Part shown: piece by piece, positions 41,197 through 57,380 of the stretch
Layout: each line of letters begins with the position of its first letter
Numbering within the stretch: position 1 is the first letter of the stretch
Origin: Pseudomonadota bacterium
GTDB lineage: Bacteria; Pseudomonadota; Alphaproteobacteria; SHVZ01
NCBI GenBank assembly: GCA_016195085.1
Contig: JACQAG010000083.1
Span: 1 to 57,380 of the forward strand
Length of the DNA stretch: 57,380 nt
Direction of reading: 5' to 3'
Made by a program: the position numbers and the translations under genes
The notes under the pieces: model-generated
Seen by the model: the letters and a program-made list of their open reading frames with translations, nothing else
Told to the model about the DNA's origin: nothing
Database searches by the model: none

Positions 41197-41905
41197 CGGC
41201 GATTCCGAGCCGTGCCAGCAGCCCCTGAGCAGCGCTCTGCTCGGCCTCGCGCTTCGAGCGTCCGCTCGCCTCGAACGGCTCGATCCCCTCGAGCCGCGCT
41301 TCGACGGTGAAGACGGGTGCATGCGCCGGGCCGCTGCAGGCGAGCTCGGTGTAGATCGGCCGCGGCATGCCGCGGCCCTGCGCCCATTCCTGCAAGGTGG
41401 TCTTCGGATCGCTGGGCGGCTCGGCGGCGCTGGCGATCCAGCCCTGCCAATGGCGGAGCACGAAGGCGCGCGCCGCCTCGAGCCCGCCATCGAGATAGAG
41501 GGCCGCGATCACCGCCTCCAAGGCATCGGCGAGCACCCCCGGATTGTCGCGGGCACCGGCATCGTTCTCGCCGCGTGACAGGAAGAGGTGGCCGCCGAGG
41601 CCGATCGAGCGCGCCACCTCGGCCAATGTCTCGCGACGCACCAGCTGAGCATAGCGCTTGGCGATGTCGCCTTCGCGCTCGGCCGGAAACCGATCGAGCA
41701 AAGCGTCGGCGACGATCAATCCGAGCACGCGGTCGCCGAGGAATTCCAGGCGCTCATAGCCGGCGCGCCCGCGTCCCACGGCGCTCCCATGGGTGAGCGC
41801 CTCCTGGATCAATCGCGGCCGGCGGAAGTTGTGGCCGACGACCGCCTCGATCGGGGCTAGTCGATCCCGTGGAACATCCGGCTGAACCGGGTGGCCAGCG
41901 GCCAT
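41189..41905 (-). CDS. rnc: ribonuclease III
   Basis: 238 residues. The signature YERLEFLGDRVLGLIVADAL lies around residues 50-69 with the metal-binding acidic residues, and DALEAVIAALYLDGGLEAAR follows (about 128). The C-terminal double-stranded RNA-binding domain (about 165-235) shows PIYTELACSGPAHAPVFTVE and EQSAAQGLLARLGI. It cuts double-stranded RNA in rRNA and mRNA maturation and could also trim crRNA:tracrRNA duplexes of the CRISPR system at the right end. The ATG at 41905 overlaps the end of lepB by 49 bases, an unusually long overlap. Confidence 0.94.
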   Translation of the reverse strand: MAAGHPVQPDVPRDRLAPIEAVVGHNFRRPRLIQEALTHGSAVGRGRAGYERLEFLGDRVLGLIVADALLDRFPAEREGDIAKRYAQLVRRETLAEVARSIGLGGHLFLSRGENDAGARDNPGVLADALEAVIAALYLDGGLEAARAFVLRHWQGWIASAAEPPSDPKTTLQEWAQGRGMPRPIYTELACSGPAHAPVFTVEARLEGIEPFEASGRSKREAEQSAAQGLLARLGIAGG

Positions 41906-52321: not shown

Positions 52322-52476
52322 GAGGCGCGGATCATTGGCCTCGCCTCCGGCCTCAGGAGCGCGGGCTATGGCTCGCCGACGGCGATCCCTACGCGCGCCG
52401 CTTGACCGAAACGATGGTCGCCGATGTGCTGGAGCAGCTCACGGGGACGCTGGGCGCGCACCTACGGCACGCCTGA
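52322..52476 (+). pseudogene. decayed udg copy (copy 3), motif 1 joined to the C-terminus
   Basis: Two glycosylase pieces can be read in different frames. At about 52326-52366, ARIIGLASGLRSAG resembles motif 1 of the udg product (ARLLIVGLAPGLKGA). At 52369-52476, WLADGDPYARRLTETMVADV then LEQLTGTLGAHLRHA and a stop resembles its C-terminus (WLADSYHCSRYN, RLTEAMFAEVLAQLKATL; about 12 of 18 residues equal in the last block). A frameshift and an internal deletion of most of the gene separate them. The fragment ends 48 bases before the tracrRNA hairpin. Confidence 0.62.
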
Positions 52477-52523
52477 GCAAACAGAGAGCTGCCGGTCTCG
52501 CCCGTTGAAGGCTCTTGAGGAAT

Positions 52524-52600
52524 CCCCCTTGGCCTTTCGGCCAAGGGGTAATCCTTCGAGTGGATAAACCACCTTACCGTGGTTTCCCAACCGACTCCCG
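52524..52600 (-). ncRNA. predicted tracrRNA of the type II-C CRISPR system
   Basis: The anti-repeat is at 52577-52599. The plus strand here reads CCGTGGTTTCCC, one changed base, then ACCGACTCCC, matching bases 2-24 of the CRISPR repeat in crRNA sense at 22 of 23 positions. The minus-strand RNA would therefore pair with crRNA along 23 bases with one U-U mismatch. After the anti-repeat come a short stem (52560-52563 with 52569-52572) and a perfect 10-base terminal hairpin (CCCCTTGGCC, 52525-52534; complement 52539-52548; tetraloop GAAA in the RNA). The order anti-repeat, small stem, GC-rich 3' hairpin is that of known tracrRNAs. The length is about 75-80 bases, and transcription runs away from cas9. 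Confidence 0.85.
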
Positions 52601-52606
52601 ACGCAG

Positions 52607-52635
52607 AGATTGCAACCCCTCCTATGCAATGTCAA
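52607..52635 (-). promoter_or_regulatory. predicted promoter of the tracrRNA
   Basis: On the minus strand TTGACA (52635-52630) is followed by a 17-base spacer and CAATCT (52612-52607). A start about 7 bases further on falls near 52600, exactly where the anti-repeat begins. The -35 box is perfect and the -10 box is weak. The agreement between predicted start and anti-repeat edge supports the call. Confidence 0.6.
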
Positions 52636-52669
52636 TAATCGCTGACTTGTGGATAACTCGGCGAATCCG

Positions 52670-55600
52670 ATGGCAACAGCCGCAAACCTTCGAAAAGGCC
52701 TGATCTTAGGCCTCGATCTTGGAATCGGCTCGTGCGGATGGGCCGTCATCGACGAGACGAAGCCTGCGGGCCGCATCATCGACATGGGCGTGCGGACCTT
52801 CGATGTGCCCGAAACCGATAAAGAGCGAACACCGACCAATCAGCTTCGCCGCGAACATCGAGGGCTTAGGAGAGTCATCGGACGCCGACGCCAACGCATG
52901 AACGGGCTGCGGCAACTTTTCCAAGACGCGGGATTGATTGCCGACGACCGCAAGGGCGCGCTCAAGATTCGGGGCCTCGATCCTTGGGCATTGAGAGCGG
53001 ATGGGCTGGAGCGGAAGCTGACCGGACCGGAATTGGCCGTGGCGCTCGGCCACATTGCGAAGCATCGCGGTTTCAAGTCAAACAGCAAGCGCGATCGCGG
53101 CGCGAACGCGCCCAAGGATTCCTCGAAGATGCTGGGCGCGATTGACGCTACGCGCGAGCGTATGAAGACCTACCGCACGGTTGGCGAGATGTTTGCCAAG
53201 GACCCAGCGTACATCGCCCGCAAACACAATCGAGATGGCGACTTCACCCGATCGATTCTCCGCGGCGATCAAGAGCAGGAGGTACGCATCCTGTTCGAAC
53301 GCCAGCGTGCCGCCGGCAATGTCATGGCGACCGCAGAGCTGGAGGCAAGGTTCACCGACGCGGCTTTCTATCAGCGACCCTTGGCCGACAGCGAGGACAA
53401 GGTCGGCGAATGCCCGTTCGAGCCAGGCGAAAAACGGGCGGCGAAGCGATGCTATTCATTTGAGCTATTTCGCTTGCTCTCGCGGCTCGCGGCGGTGCGC
53501 ATTCAATCGTTCTCGGAAGAGCGGGCGTTGACGCCAGAAGAAATCGACGCCGCAAGCAAGGATTTCGGCGCGTTCCGAGGAATGACCTTCAAGCGAATGC
53601 GCAAGCGTATAGAACTACACGAAGAACAGCGCTTTGCCGGTGTCCCGCTCGACGACGAGGGACGACGCGACGTCGTCGCAAGGACCGGCGACATGGCTTC
53701 CGGCACCTATGCGCTCCGGAAGATCCTGGGCAGCGCCTGGAGAACGTTGCTGGCTGCCCCCGGCACGCTCGACCGGATCGCTTTCGTACTCTCCTTTCGC
53801 GAAGACCCGAAGTCGATCCGCGCCGGTCTCGATGAGATCGGTCTCGATCAAGTCATCGTCGACGCCGTGATGAAGGGCGTGGAGGACGGGGACTTCGGCC
53901 AGTTCAGCGGAGCGGGCCATATCTCCGCCAAAGCGTGCCGGAAGCTGATTCCCCATCTCAAGCACGGTCTTGTCTATTCGCGAGCGTGCGAAGAAGTGCC
54001 TGGTTACAATCACGCTGCGCCGCCCGAGGCCGATCCAAGCAAGATTGGCAGTCCCGTTGCCCGCAAGGCGCTGACGGAGGCAATCAAGCAAGTGCGTGCC
54101 GTCATACGCGAGCACGGCTTGCCGGAGCACGTTCACATCGAGCTCGCACGCGACGTCGGGAAGAGCAAGGAAGAGCGCGACGAGATAAGGATCGGCATCG
54201 ACAGGCGCAATAGGGAAAAGGACCGCCTCCGCGAGCATTTCCTGGAAACGGTCGGGAGCGAAGCAACGAGCGGCGAAGACCTCCTCCGCTTCGAGCTCTG
54301 GCGCGAGCAGAACGGCCGTTGCCTCTACACAGACCGGGTAATCCATCCGAACGCCATCGTCGCGTCAGACAACTCGGTGCAGATCGATCACATTCTGCCG
54401 TGGAGCCGCGCTGGCGACGATTCGTTCGTCAACAAAACGCTGTGCCTTGCGAGCGCCAATCAGCAAAAGAAGGGCCGCACACCTTGGGAATGGTTCAAGG
54501 CCGAGCGGACCGATGCCGAGTGGGCGGCCTTCGCCGAGGGCATCGAAACCAACAAAAGCATGAAGGGCCGCAAGAAGCGCAACTACCTTCTCAAGGATTC
54601 GTCGATTCTCGAGGAGAAGTTCCGTCCGCGAAACCTCAACGACACGCGCTACGCTTGCCGTCTCTTGGCCGATGTGGTGGCGCGGATGTACCCAGACGAT
54701 GGGCGGCGTCATGTTCTCGCCCGGCCCGGCCGCTTGACGAGCCTGTTGCGCAGGGGATGGGGCGTCCAAGACTTGAAGAAGGACGCGGATGGCAAACGCG
54801 TCGATGACGACCGCCACCACGCGCTCGACGCGCTCGTCGTCGCAGCGACGACGGAGGGCGAACTGCAAGAGCTGACTCGCGCGTTTCAGGAAGCGGAAAA
54901 GCTCGGCGCGCATCGCGACTTCAAAAGGCTTGATCCGCCATGGCTCGGTTTTGCAGCGGAGGCAAGAGCGAAGCTCGACGCCGTCTTCGTCTCGCGGGCC
55001 GAGCGACGGCGCGCACGCGGAGAAGCGCATGGCGCAACCATCCGTCAGATCGTCGAGACCGATGGAAAGCATATCGTCTATGAGCGCAAAAGCGTCGACG
55101 CGGTGACGGAAAGCGATCTGGCGCGAATCAAGGATGCCGAGAGAAACGCCAAGCTGGTCGGAGCGCTCCGGGAATGGATCGCGGCCGGCAAGCCGAAAGA
55201 CCGGCGCCCGCTGTCTCCAAAGGGAGATCCCATCGCGAAGGTTCGACTGCGGACCAACAAGAAGGCTGACGTCCTCATACGCAGTGGCGTTGCCGATCGG
55301 GGGGAAATGGTGCGCGTCGATGTCTTCCGAAAGAAGAACCGGAGGAATTTGTGGGAGTATTTTTTTGTTCCGGTCTACCCGCATCAGGTGGCCAACGCAA
55401 TGGATTGGCCGACGCCGCCAAACAAGGCCGTGCAGGGTAACACGCCGGAAGAGCTGTGGCCCGACGTGGACGAGACCTACGAGTTTCGCTGGAGCCTCTA
55501 TCCGCTGAGCTTCGTTGAGCTGATAAAGTCCGACGGCGAAGTGATCGAGGGTTACCTGCGAGGTGTCAACCGCAACACGGGAGCATTGGCGGTCTCTCCC

Positions 55601-55741
55601 CATCACACCAAACAGGAGGTTCGAGACGGTATTGGCGGTAGGACGCTCAAGGATTTACGCAAGTTCACCGTTGATCGCCTCGGTCGCCGCTTCGAGATTG
55701 CGCGGGAGATCCGCACATGGCATGGCGCGGCCTGCACGTAA
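52670..55741 (+). CDS. cas9: Cas9 endonuclease, type II-C
   Basis: 1023 residues from ATG 52670; a GTG at 52649 adds 7. Neither has a clear ribosome site. Positions are counted from the ATG. RuvC-I is LILGLDLGIGSCGWAVID with D16. The arginine-rich bridge helix (HRGLRRVIGRRRQRMNGLRQ) spans about 63-82. RuvC-II is HVHIELARD with E491. The HNH nuclease is SVQIDHILPWSRAGDDSFVN (H574), then CLASANQQKKGRTPWEW with N597. RuvC-III is DDDRHHALDALVVA with H717 and D720. All catalytic residues are present, so both DNA strands should be cut. The C-terminal 200 residues form the wedge and PAM-reading region (YFFVPVYPHQVANAMDW). Size and the absence of csn2 or cas4 fit subtype II-C. Confidence 0.96.
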   Translation: MATAANLRKGLILGLDLGIGSCGWAVIDETKPAGRIIDMGVRTFDVPETDKERTPTNQLRREHRGLRRVIGRRRQRMNGLRQLFQDAGLIADDRKGALKIRGLDPWALRADGLERKLTGPELAVALGHIAKHRGFKSNSKRDRGANAPKDSSKMLGAIDATRERMKTYRTVGEMFAKDPAYIARKHNRDGDFTRSILRGDQEQEVRILFERQRAAGNVMATAELEARFTDAAFYQRPLADSEDKVGECPFEPGEKRAAKRCYSFELFRLLSRLAAVRIQSFSEERALTPEEIDAASKDFGAFRGMTFKRMRKRIELHEEQRFAGVPLDDEGRRDVVARTGDMASGTYALRKILGSAWRTLLAAPGTLDRIAFVLSFREDPKSIRAGLDEIGLDQVIVDAVMKGVEDGDFGQFSGAGHISAKACRKLIPHLKHGLVYSRACEEVPGYNHAAPPEADPSKIGSPVARKALTEAIKQVRAVIREHGLPEHVHIELARDVGKSKEERDEIRIGIDRRNREKDRLREHFLETVGSEATSGEDLLRFELWREQNGRCLYTDRVIHPNAIVASDNSVQIDHILPWSRAGDDSFVNKTLCLASANQQKKGRTPWEWFKAERTDAEWAAFAEGIETNKSMKGRKKRNYLLKDSSILEEKFRPRNLNDTRYACRLLADVVARMYPDDGRRHVLARPGRLTSLLRRGWGVQDLKKDADGKRVDDDRHHALDALVVAATTEGELQELTRAFQEAEKLGAHRDFKRLDPPWLGFAAEARAKLDAVFVSRAERRRARGEAHGATIRQIVETDGKHIVYERKSVDAVTESDLARIKDAERNAKLVGALREWIAAGKPKDRRPLSPKGDPIAKVRLRTNKKADVLIRSGVADRGEMVRVDVFRKKNRRNLWEYFFVPVYPHQVANAMDWPTPPNKAVQGNTPEELWPDVDETYEFRWSLYPLSFVELIKSDGEVIEGYLRGVNRNTGALAVSPHHTKQEVRDGIGGRTLKDLRKFTVDRLGRRFEIAREIRTWHGAACT

Positions 55742-56616
55742 CGAAGCCGTCGCGGCTGGCTTTGGCCGACGGACAAGTGACGATCGCCCAAGACGATGGG
55801 GACGTGCGCGTCCCGCTCGAAGATCTTGCCTGGATCGTCCTCGATACGCCGCAATCTACTTTGACCGGAAGCTTGCTTTCCGCGTGCATGTCGGCGGGCA
55901 TTGCATTGATCGCGACCGACGAGACTCACACGCCGTCCGGCGTCCTGCTACCCTTTCACCGGCATTTCCGTCAGGGTGAGATCGCGCATCGGCAGGCGGC
56001 TATAGGCGCGCCCCTGAAGAAGCGGCTCTGGCGAAGGATCGTGCGCGCCAAAATCGAAAATCAGGCGGAAGCGCTCCACGTCGCCCACCGCGGCGGCGCG
56101 CGCACGCTTCGGGAAATGGCGCATCTCGTCGGGTCCGGCGACCCGCGCAACGTCGAGGCAAGGGCAGCCAGGTATTATTGGACGCAGCTATGGCCCGAGT
56201 TCCGCCGCGAGGATGGCGGGGATAAGCGGAACAAGCTGCTGAATTACGGCTACGCCGTTGTTCGGGCCGGCGTTGCTCGCTCGCTCGTGGCTGCGGGCCT
56301 GCTTCCGGCCTTCGGCCTCAACCATGCGAGCGTCACGAACGCCTTCAATCTCGCAGACGACATCGTCGAGCCGTTTCGGCCCTTCGTCGACTCCCTGGCG
56401 TGGAAGACGGCGGATGCGGGCCGGCCGTCGCGTGACGACCTCACAATCGACGACCGGCGCGCCATGGCGGGCGTTCTTCTCGCCGAAGCCAAGATGTCGG
56501 ACGAAACCGTGACGTTGCTCGTGGCCGCCGAGAGGACGGCGGAATCGCTGGTGCGTGCGATGGAGGGCTCGACGGCTGATATTCTCGAGCTCCCGGCTTT
56601 TGCTTCTCGAGCGTGA
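55717..56616 (+). CDS. cas1: CRISPR-associated integrase Cas1
   Basis: 299 residues. The metal-binding residues are E147 in GDPRNVEARAARYYWTQLW, H203 in AFGLNHASVTNAFNLADD, and D215/E218 in ADDIVEPFRPFVD. The type II Cas1 start TKPSRLALADGQVTIAQDD is recognisable. Together with Cas2 it inserts new spacers into the array. The gene overlaps the cas9 end by 25 bases, implying one transcript and coupled translation. Confidence 0.95.
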   Translation: MAWRGLHVTKPSRLALADGQVTIAQDDGDVRVPLEDLAWIVLDTPQSTLTGSLLSACMSAGIALIATDETHTPSGVLLPFHRHFRQGEIAHRQAAIGAPLKKRLWRRIVRAKIENQAEALHVAHRGGARTLREMAHLVGSGDPRNVEARAARYYWTQLWPEFRREDGGDKRNKLLNYGYAVVRAGVARSLVAAGLLPAFGLNHASVTNAFNLADDIVEPFRPFVDSLAWKTADAGRPSRDDLTIDDRRAMAGVLLAEAKMSDETVTLLVAAERTAESLVRAMEGSTADILELPAFASRA

Positions 56617-56625
56617 GCGCTTTTG

Positions 56626-56955
56626 ATGAAAGTCGAAGAGGTCCGCATCTTGTGGATGTTCGTTTTCTTCGATTTGCCGGTCGGGACCAAGGGCGAGCGG
56701 CGCGCCGCGACGCGTTTCCGCAATTTTCTGAAGGACGACGGTTATATGATGCTGCAATGGTCGGTATATGCGCGCGTGTGCCGCGGCGAGGAGGCGGCCG
56801 AGAAGCACGTTCAGCGCGTCACCAAGAATTTGCCGGGAAAAGGCAGCGTGCGAGCCCTGCAAGTGACCGATAAGCAATACGGTCGGATGCGACTGTTGCT
56901 CGGAGAGATGACGAAAAATGAGAGAGTCGCCCCTCAGCAGATGGTCCTGCTCTGA
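56626..56955 (+). CDS. cas2: CRISPR-associated protein Cas2
   Basis: 109 residues from ATG 56626. The ferredoxin-like fold starts RILWMFVFFDLPVGTKGERR with the conserved aspartate D16, then FRNFLKDDGYMMLQWSVYAR and RALQVTDKQYGRMRLLLG. It is the structural partner of Cas1 in spacer integration. It follows cas1 by 9 bases. Only this three-gene set (cas9, cas1, cas2) is present. Confidence 0.94.
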   Translation: MKVEEVRILWMFVFFDLPVGTKGERRAATRFRNFLKDDGYMMLQWSVYARVCRGEEAAEKHVQRVTKNLPGKGSVRALQVTDKQYGRMRLLLGEMTKNERVAPQQMVLL

Positions 56956-56987
56956 TTTCGGCCTCGGTAAGAAGGCAAAAATCAGAG
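56950..56987. terminator. hairpin between cas2 and the array, possible bidirectional terminator
   Basis: CTCTGATTT (56950-56958) and AAATCAGAG (56979-56987) are perfect 9-base arms around a 20-base loop; the cas2 stop codon lies in the left arm. It separates the rightward cas transcript from the leftward array transcript inferred from the anti-repeat. No strong U-tract follows on either strand, so termination is only plausible. Confidence 0.45.
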
Positions 56988-57013
56988 CATTTCCAATAGC
57001 TTCGATCGCTGGG

Positions 57014-57379
57014 AGCCTACCGGATGGGAGTCGGTAGGGAAACCACGGCGCGGGGGTCCCTTGAGCCGTACAGATAGGCAGCCTACCGGATGGGAGTCGG
57101 TAGGGAAACCACGGCAGCTTGGATCGCGCCTCGACAGGAGACAGCAGCCTACCGGATGGGAGTCGGTAGGGAAACCACGGCGAAAATGCATCGACCTGGA
57201 AGGGGCGACGGAGCCTACCGGATGGGAGTCGGTAGGGAAACCACGGCCGGCAATTACGATGTCGTCGGGATGCGGGCAGCCTACCGGATGGGAGTCGGTA
57301 GGGAAACCACGGCGAACTGCGTCCCGGTGTTTATCGCCAGACGAGCCTACCGGATGGGAGTCGGTAGGGAAACCACGGC
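57014..57379 (-). CRISPR. CRISPR array, six 36-base repeats seen, continues beyond the window
   Basis: Identical repeats start at 57014, 57080, 57146, 57212, 57278 and 57344. Each is 36 bases, and all five complete spacers are exactly 30 bases, typical of II-C. In crRNA sense (minus strand) the repeat begins GCCGTGGTTTCCCTACCGAC and ends CCGGTAGGCT. Its first 24 bases carry the anti-repeat match, so crRNA reads leftward, toward cas2. The last base of the window (57380) begins another spacer, so the array and its leader end lie to the right. All six repeats are identical, with no decayed terminal repeat. Confidence 0.97.
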
Positions 57380-57380
57380 C

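Follow-up and report, generated by a model that had tools for sequence, protein, structure and literature searches.

A type II-C CRISPR-Cas9 adaptive immune system, complete in its parts, almost certainly occupies the right end of the window, that is, of the whole stretch of 57,380 nt analysed here, which is the entire contig C83 of a 4.81 Mb genome (G000) in 95 contigs. Profile, structure, tracrRNA and comparative evidence support both this identity and the intactness of Cas9, and from its sequence the nuclease is predicted to be active. As the earlier note had claimed, open reading frames, protein families and repeats place tracrRNA, cas9, cas1, cas2 and an array in one block of about 4.8 kb at this end; only the start had to be moved, from 52524 to 52516. 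The features are as follows (window coordinates).

52516-57380: CRISPR-Cas9 locus, in the order tracrRNA (minus strand), cas9, cas1, cas2, CRISPR array
52516-52600, minus strand: tracrRNA (about 85 nt), from repeat pairing, fold and covariation
52577-52600, minus strand: anti-repeat; 22/23 nt complementary to the repeat over 52577-52599
52559-52573, minus strand: nexus hairpin of the tracrRNA
About 52516-52556, minus strand: terminal hairpin of the tracrRNA
52607-52635, minus strand: likely tracrRNA promoter, TTGACA (52635-52630), 17 nt, CAATCT (52612-52607)
52610-52639, plus strand: possible cas9-operon promoter, TTGCAA-18-AATAAT
52670-55741, plus strand: cas9, 1023 aa, ATG start; TIGR01865, 613.5 bits; model pLDDT 82.7
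55717-56616, plus strand: cas1, 299 aa, type II; TIGR03639, 278 bits
56626-56955, plus strand: cas2, 109 aa; TIGR01573, 79 bits
56948-57013, no strand assigned: cas2-array interval, comprising a hairpin across the cas2 stop codon (56948-56989) and the 24 nt that precede the first repeat
57014-57380, minus strand: CRISPR array, six identical 36-nt repeats and five 30-nt spacers; continues at positions 1-166 of contig C31 of the same genome

Cas9, its partner proteins and the type of the locus

Looking at the cas9 gene, translation from the ATG at 52670 gives 1023 aa, the length reported in the earlier note, and an in-frame GTG at 52649 offers an alternative start that would add 7 aa. The protein had also been called small, which it is, but about 1020-1070 aa is the norm within this group. 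The Cas9 equivalog profile TIGR01865 matched across the whole protein and above its curated cut-off. The catalytic residues are retained, in agreement with the first reading of the sequence: RuvC D16, E491, H717 and D720 and HNH H574 and N597 are identical in 16/16 aligned Cas9s, and HNH D573 is a Glu in one of the 16. Comparison with characterised orthologs and a structural model, both suggested in the earlier note, led to II-C enzymes. The AlphaFold2 model (pLDDT 82.7, pTM 0.57) matched Nme1Cas9 (6je4) with a Z of 31.3 across 949 residues; the structures of ThermoCas9, GeoCas9 and HpaCas9 matched nearly as well, and the matches to Nme1Cas9, ThermoCas9 and GeoCas9 ran along the full length. 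The rmsd of these matches was 7-8 Å over the whole chain, a value that probably reflects domain positions and the modest pTM. The Nme1Cas9 of Neisseria meningitidis (6je4, 6jdq) and the window Cas9 thus share the full-length fold, the catalytic residues and the II-C organisation; they differ in sequence (32% identity) and at position 1024, where Nme1Cas9 has His and the window protein Asn.

Both cas1 and cas2 exceeded the NCBIfam and Pfam cut-offs, and in the alignments Cas1 E147, H203 and E218 and Cas2 D16 were invariant in 9 homologues; this Cas1 was the single one found in the genome. There is no space for a further gene from cas9 through cas1 and cas2 to the array, and csn2 and cas4 are absent from the locus. 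The locus has the features of type II-C: an adaptation module of cas1 and cas2 alone, a Cas9 with a split RuvC, an HNH domain and intact catalytic residues, a tracrRNA with anti-repeat, nexus and terminal hairpin, and 36-nt repeats with spacers of about 30 nt. Type II-A was rejected on the lack of csn2 beside cas2 and on the cas2-array distance of 58 nt. A Csn2 search of the whole genome gave no match, but its controls gave none either, and the first 1.6 kb distal to the array held no large open reading frame. RNase III, the usual processing enzyme for such guide RNAs, is encoded by the host at 41207-41845 in the window.

Two observations concern the flanks. Similar peptide fragments (LWLAD...RLTE.M.A.VL..L) lie on both sides of the CRISPR locus, at about 52364-52455 in the window and at about 460-560 on C31 (L043); they resemble the remains of a single gene and possibly indicate where the locus was inserted, and the C31 copy had no Pfam match. 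Just past the array, on the minus strand of C31 (L043, 625-1232), a gene pair encodes an HI1420-type antidote (PF21716) and a Gp49-like protein (PF05973). This pair, which looks like a toxin-antitoxin module, provides the first clear genes beyond the distal array end.

Guide RNA, promoters and array polarity

The tracrRNA gave a fold z of -6.35 (against 200 shuffles), and the joined repeat-tracrRNA guide gave -10.4. In the joined guide, repeat and anti-repeat pair continuously except for a single U-U mismatch, a difference from the Nme1Cas9 system, and a nexus hairpin and a strong terminal hairpin follow. With the tracrRNA alone, RNAalifold paired the anti-repeat onto the nexus, as expected without crRNA. 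The same element was found upstream of cas9 in nine relatives, and over the 10 loci 8/15 tested helix pairs carried double, compensatory changes, the observed values being reached by 0/500 shuffles; anti-repeats and repeats were altered in step between species. An Rfam search returned no tracrRNA match, only a sub-threshold miRNA match.

TTGAC lies at an equal distance upstream of the tracrRNA in 9/10 loci (not L018) and is followed by an AT-leaning -10 sequence, and TTGACA-17-CAATCT is accordingly placed as the likely tracrRNA promoter in the window. On the other strand, a consensus scan found one cas9-operon promoter (0.1 expected), and TTGCAA-18-AATAAT is a weak candidate for this function. 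Between the tracrRNA promoter and the cas9 start, positions 52648-52656 read TGTGGATAA, whose minus strand, TTATCCACA, matches the DnaA box perfectly. The window has no other copy; L037 and L038 keep it at the equivalent position, and the other relatives do not. It is possibly a regulatory site.

The 36-nt repeat AGCCTACCGGATGGGAGTCGGTAGGGAAACCACGGC occurs six times without change at an exact 66-nt spacing (57014-57379), and the contig stops one base inside the sixth spacer, so that the array is truncated in the window. A whole-genome search located three further repeats at the start of contig C31, which begins inside the array; the array is therefore longer than its visible part. On C31 there is one additional spacer, together with spacer 2 in a second copy, and C83 and C31 combined have nine repeats, complete or nearly so, with zero mismatches. 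The six identical repeats and 30-base spacers of the earlier note were confirmed, six being the count of the visible part only. The two copies of spacer 2 (30 nt) lie near the cas2 end (57116-57145) and, as the most distal spacer, on C31 (101-130); this could be a real duplication or a mixture of strains in the assembly.

On the minus strand the crRNA repeat reads GCCGTGGTTTCCC..., and the strand logic of repeat/anti-repeat pairing implies that crRNAs come from this strand, toward cas2. Judged from the sequence and by analogy, the cas2-proximal end is likely the end at which spacers are integrated. Most relatives have 57-58 nt separating cas2 from the array and a hairpin that spans the stop codon of cas2, and in two the distance is 46 nt; L040 and L041 carry mutations in their far-end repeats. 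This conserved interval and the degenerate distal repeats agree with the published polarity of II-C arrays, in which acquisition takes place at the downstream end and promoters lie inside the repeats (PMC12638026, PMC12080349). No clear promoter was identified within the window repeat.

Just past the distal repeat, C31 carries a perfect 21-bp palindrome (168-212; L003, L043) with a fold z of -8.24, which occurs nowhere else in the genome. An 18-bp palindrome stands at the equivalent place in the related genome G372 (L064), and weaker ones near the far array ends of the two Tistrella-type loci; in L041, whose last repeat is mutated, there is no clear distal hairpin. The 25 nt adjoining the extra distal repeat fall almost wholly inside the C31 hairpin. 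A study covering over 650 II-C systems names terminators, hairpins in the guide and mutation of the extra repeat as means of suppressing extraneous crRNA (PMC12080349), and by analogy the C31 hairpin is probably such a device; since it has no obvious U-run, it is not clearly a terminator.

Spacer targets and the PAM-reading domain

Six different spacers, of which the window holds five and C31 the other, gave nothing above chance against phages and plasmids. When their PAM-proximal 18-mers were compared with 2.9 million viral contigs, each had 0-2 matches, with only 20-23/30 bases matching. The arrays were also compared with 385 genomes from the class and with 59 G372 relatives, where they returned array matches and chance-level pieces; spacer 2 found only its two array copies in the host genome, and the G372 array had no target among phages. 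The best protospacer candidate (26/30, in G050) was rejected, being inside an open reading frame that reads as a chemotaxis receptor. The expectation that the spacers match mobile elements was not borne out in the phages, plasmids and viral contigs searched, and, as these collections held no credible protospacer, neither the PAM nor past infections can be read from the array. Missing spacer targets are common because virus collections are sparse.

The C-terminal 184 residues, described earlier as individual, aligned directly and end to end with HpaCas9 and Nme1Cas9. This domain is 60% identical to that of the sister Cas9 (compare 67-76% for the other domains), which means that the PAM domain evolves faster than the others, yet it still aligns to known orthologs. 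Because of this alignment the PAM, which had been considered not predictable from orthologs, becomes weakly so at position 5. Residues N967, T970 and A972 correspond to His1024, Thr1027 and Asn1029 of Nme1Cas9, in which His1024 touches the fifth PAM base; among orthologues of Nme1Cas9, Asp at this site is associated with C, and either His or Asn is associated with A or G (PMC9433092). Under this rule Asn967 would make the window Cas9 take a purine at position 5. We hold this prediction with low to moderate confidence, since the rule was derived from proteins that share 60-70% identity with Nme1Cas9, and the figure here is about 32%. The same residue is His in the sister protein (L037) and Asp in the other members of the alphaproteobacterial clade that were aligned. 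Within this Asp-bearing clade, the window Cas9 (Asn967) and L037 (His) might have switched to a purine at position 5, a suggestion that we make tentatively and consider somewhat doubtful.

In the scheme we propose, the data show the gene content, the intact catalytic residues, the predicted Cas9 fold, the RNA pairing and covariation and the array layout, and we infer expression, cleavage, PAM, integration end and hairpin function. New 30-bp spacers would be inserted by Cas1-Cas2, the most likely site being the repeat next to cas2. Minus-strand crRNAs would run toward cas2, and the initial 24 nt of each repeat would pair with the anti-repeat of a tracrRNA whose transcription leads away from cas9. 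Guided by the two RNAs, Cas9 would cleave matching DNA beside a PAM located 3' of the protospacer, for which Asn967 predicts a purine at position 5. The 21-bp C31 hairpin would sit in the would-be guide of the extra repeat, the first to be transcribed, and would probably silence the extraneous crRNA arising from it.

Relatives, rival readings and significance

Alphaproteobacterial relatives with 43-70% Cas9 identity have the same architecture, with 36-nt repeats and 30-nt spacers. Those at 57-70% are Rhodospirillales-type bacteria and G372, and in a tree of 16 Cas9 proteins that of G372 (L037) was the sister of the window Cas9 (support 98/99). The two are 70% identical and share the tracrRNA, its promoter and a hairpin just past the distal repeat; they differ at the PAM-position-5 residue, and G372 has the Thr and Asn exactly as in Nme1Cas9. 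The Cas9 of Tistrella mobilis (plasmid NC_017958.1, H1, with the same coordinates as L039/G264) is about 51% identical. Its locus resembles ours in order, tracrRNA architecture, 30-nt spacers, 58-nt cas2-array gap and 36-nt repeat (GCCGTGGTTTCCCTACCGA...), and differs in its longer nexus and its Asp at the PAM-position-5 residue; we found no functional study of this enzyme in the literature searched. EHCas9 and SdoCas9, clade IX II-C enzymes related to Alphaproteobacteria (PMC10281378), are likewise compact, with the II-C gene order and 36-nt repeats. They probably form a separate branch, judged via the Pseudosulfitobacter Cas9s, a possible proxy for SdoCas9, which are only about 27% identical to the window Cas9. 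A cas9 match at E <= 1e-60 was found in 10/385 genomes of the class; six further genomes searched from the order, all from the same family, gave none. The system is therefore patchy. In a close relative, L038 (G092:C104, 4395-7351), cas9 lies in two frames with a break near residues 566-589, at the HNH site, and is a pseudogene or an assembly error; cas1, cas2 and the array there look intact.

The effector itself could belong to another class 2 type, II-D (Cas9d) or an IscB-like ancestor, and the Cas9d model does match at 162 bits. This score is far under the Cas9d cut-off of 375, whereas TIGR01865 reaches 613 over the whole protein; moreover, among solved structures the nearest are those of the II-C enzymes Nme1, ThermoCas9, GeoCas9 and HpaCas9, and cas1-cas2 and the 36-nt repeats follow the II-C layout, which leaves this assignment extremely improbable. 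Plus-strand crRNAs, starting from a leader beside cas2, are also very unlikely: the cas2-array interval is conserved, as leaders are, but the type II arrangement, in which the anti-repeat is paired to the repeat's 5' part ahead of nexus and terminal hairpin, arises only when array and tracrRNA are both transcribed from the minus strand, and TTGAC is properly placed on the minus strand in 9/10 loci.

Keeping to a type II-C system read from the minus strand, one may still ask whether it is a relic, genetically intact but unexpressed and no longer acquiring spacers. The lack of a spacer target in any collection searched, the six same-family genomes without a cas9 match and the relative G092, with its cas9 broken in two frames near HNH, would fit such a state. 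Nevertheless, the catalytic residues of Cas9, Cas1 and Cas2 are all kept, no mismatch occurs in the nine repeats, complete or nearly so, of the two contigs, the tracrRNA and its promoter are conserved, with compensatory changes, and absent targets are common with sparse virus collections; we consider an inactive locus unlikely.

Altogether, the locus is an ordinary one of the common small type II-C kind, from a little-sampled lineage of Alphaproteobacteria, and it changes nothing in existing CRISPR knowledge. With it, a compact II-C Cas9 that is intact and comes with a ready guide-RNA design joins a group in which we met few characterised enzymes. Specialists may find only the PAM prediction and the distal hairpin of interest. 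The array looks like another case in which a hairpin, of a sort described recently, keeps a II-C array from making useless guide RNA, and the switch at PAM position 5, if true, would be a natural one among close relatives with near-identical guide-RNA scaffolds. The Asn/His sister pair among Asp-bearing relatives would offer a clean setting for one-residue control of PAM position 5 outside the Neisseria-type enzymes.
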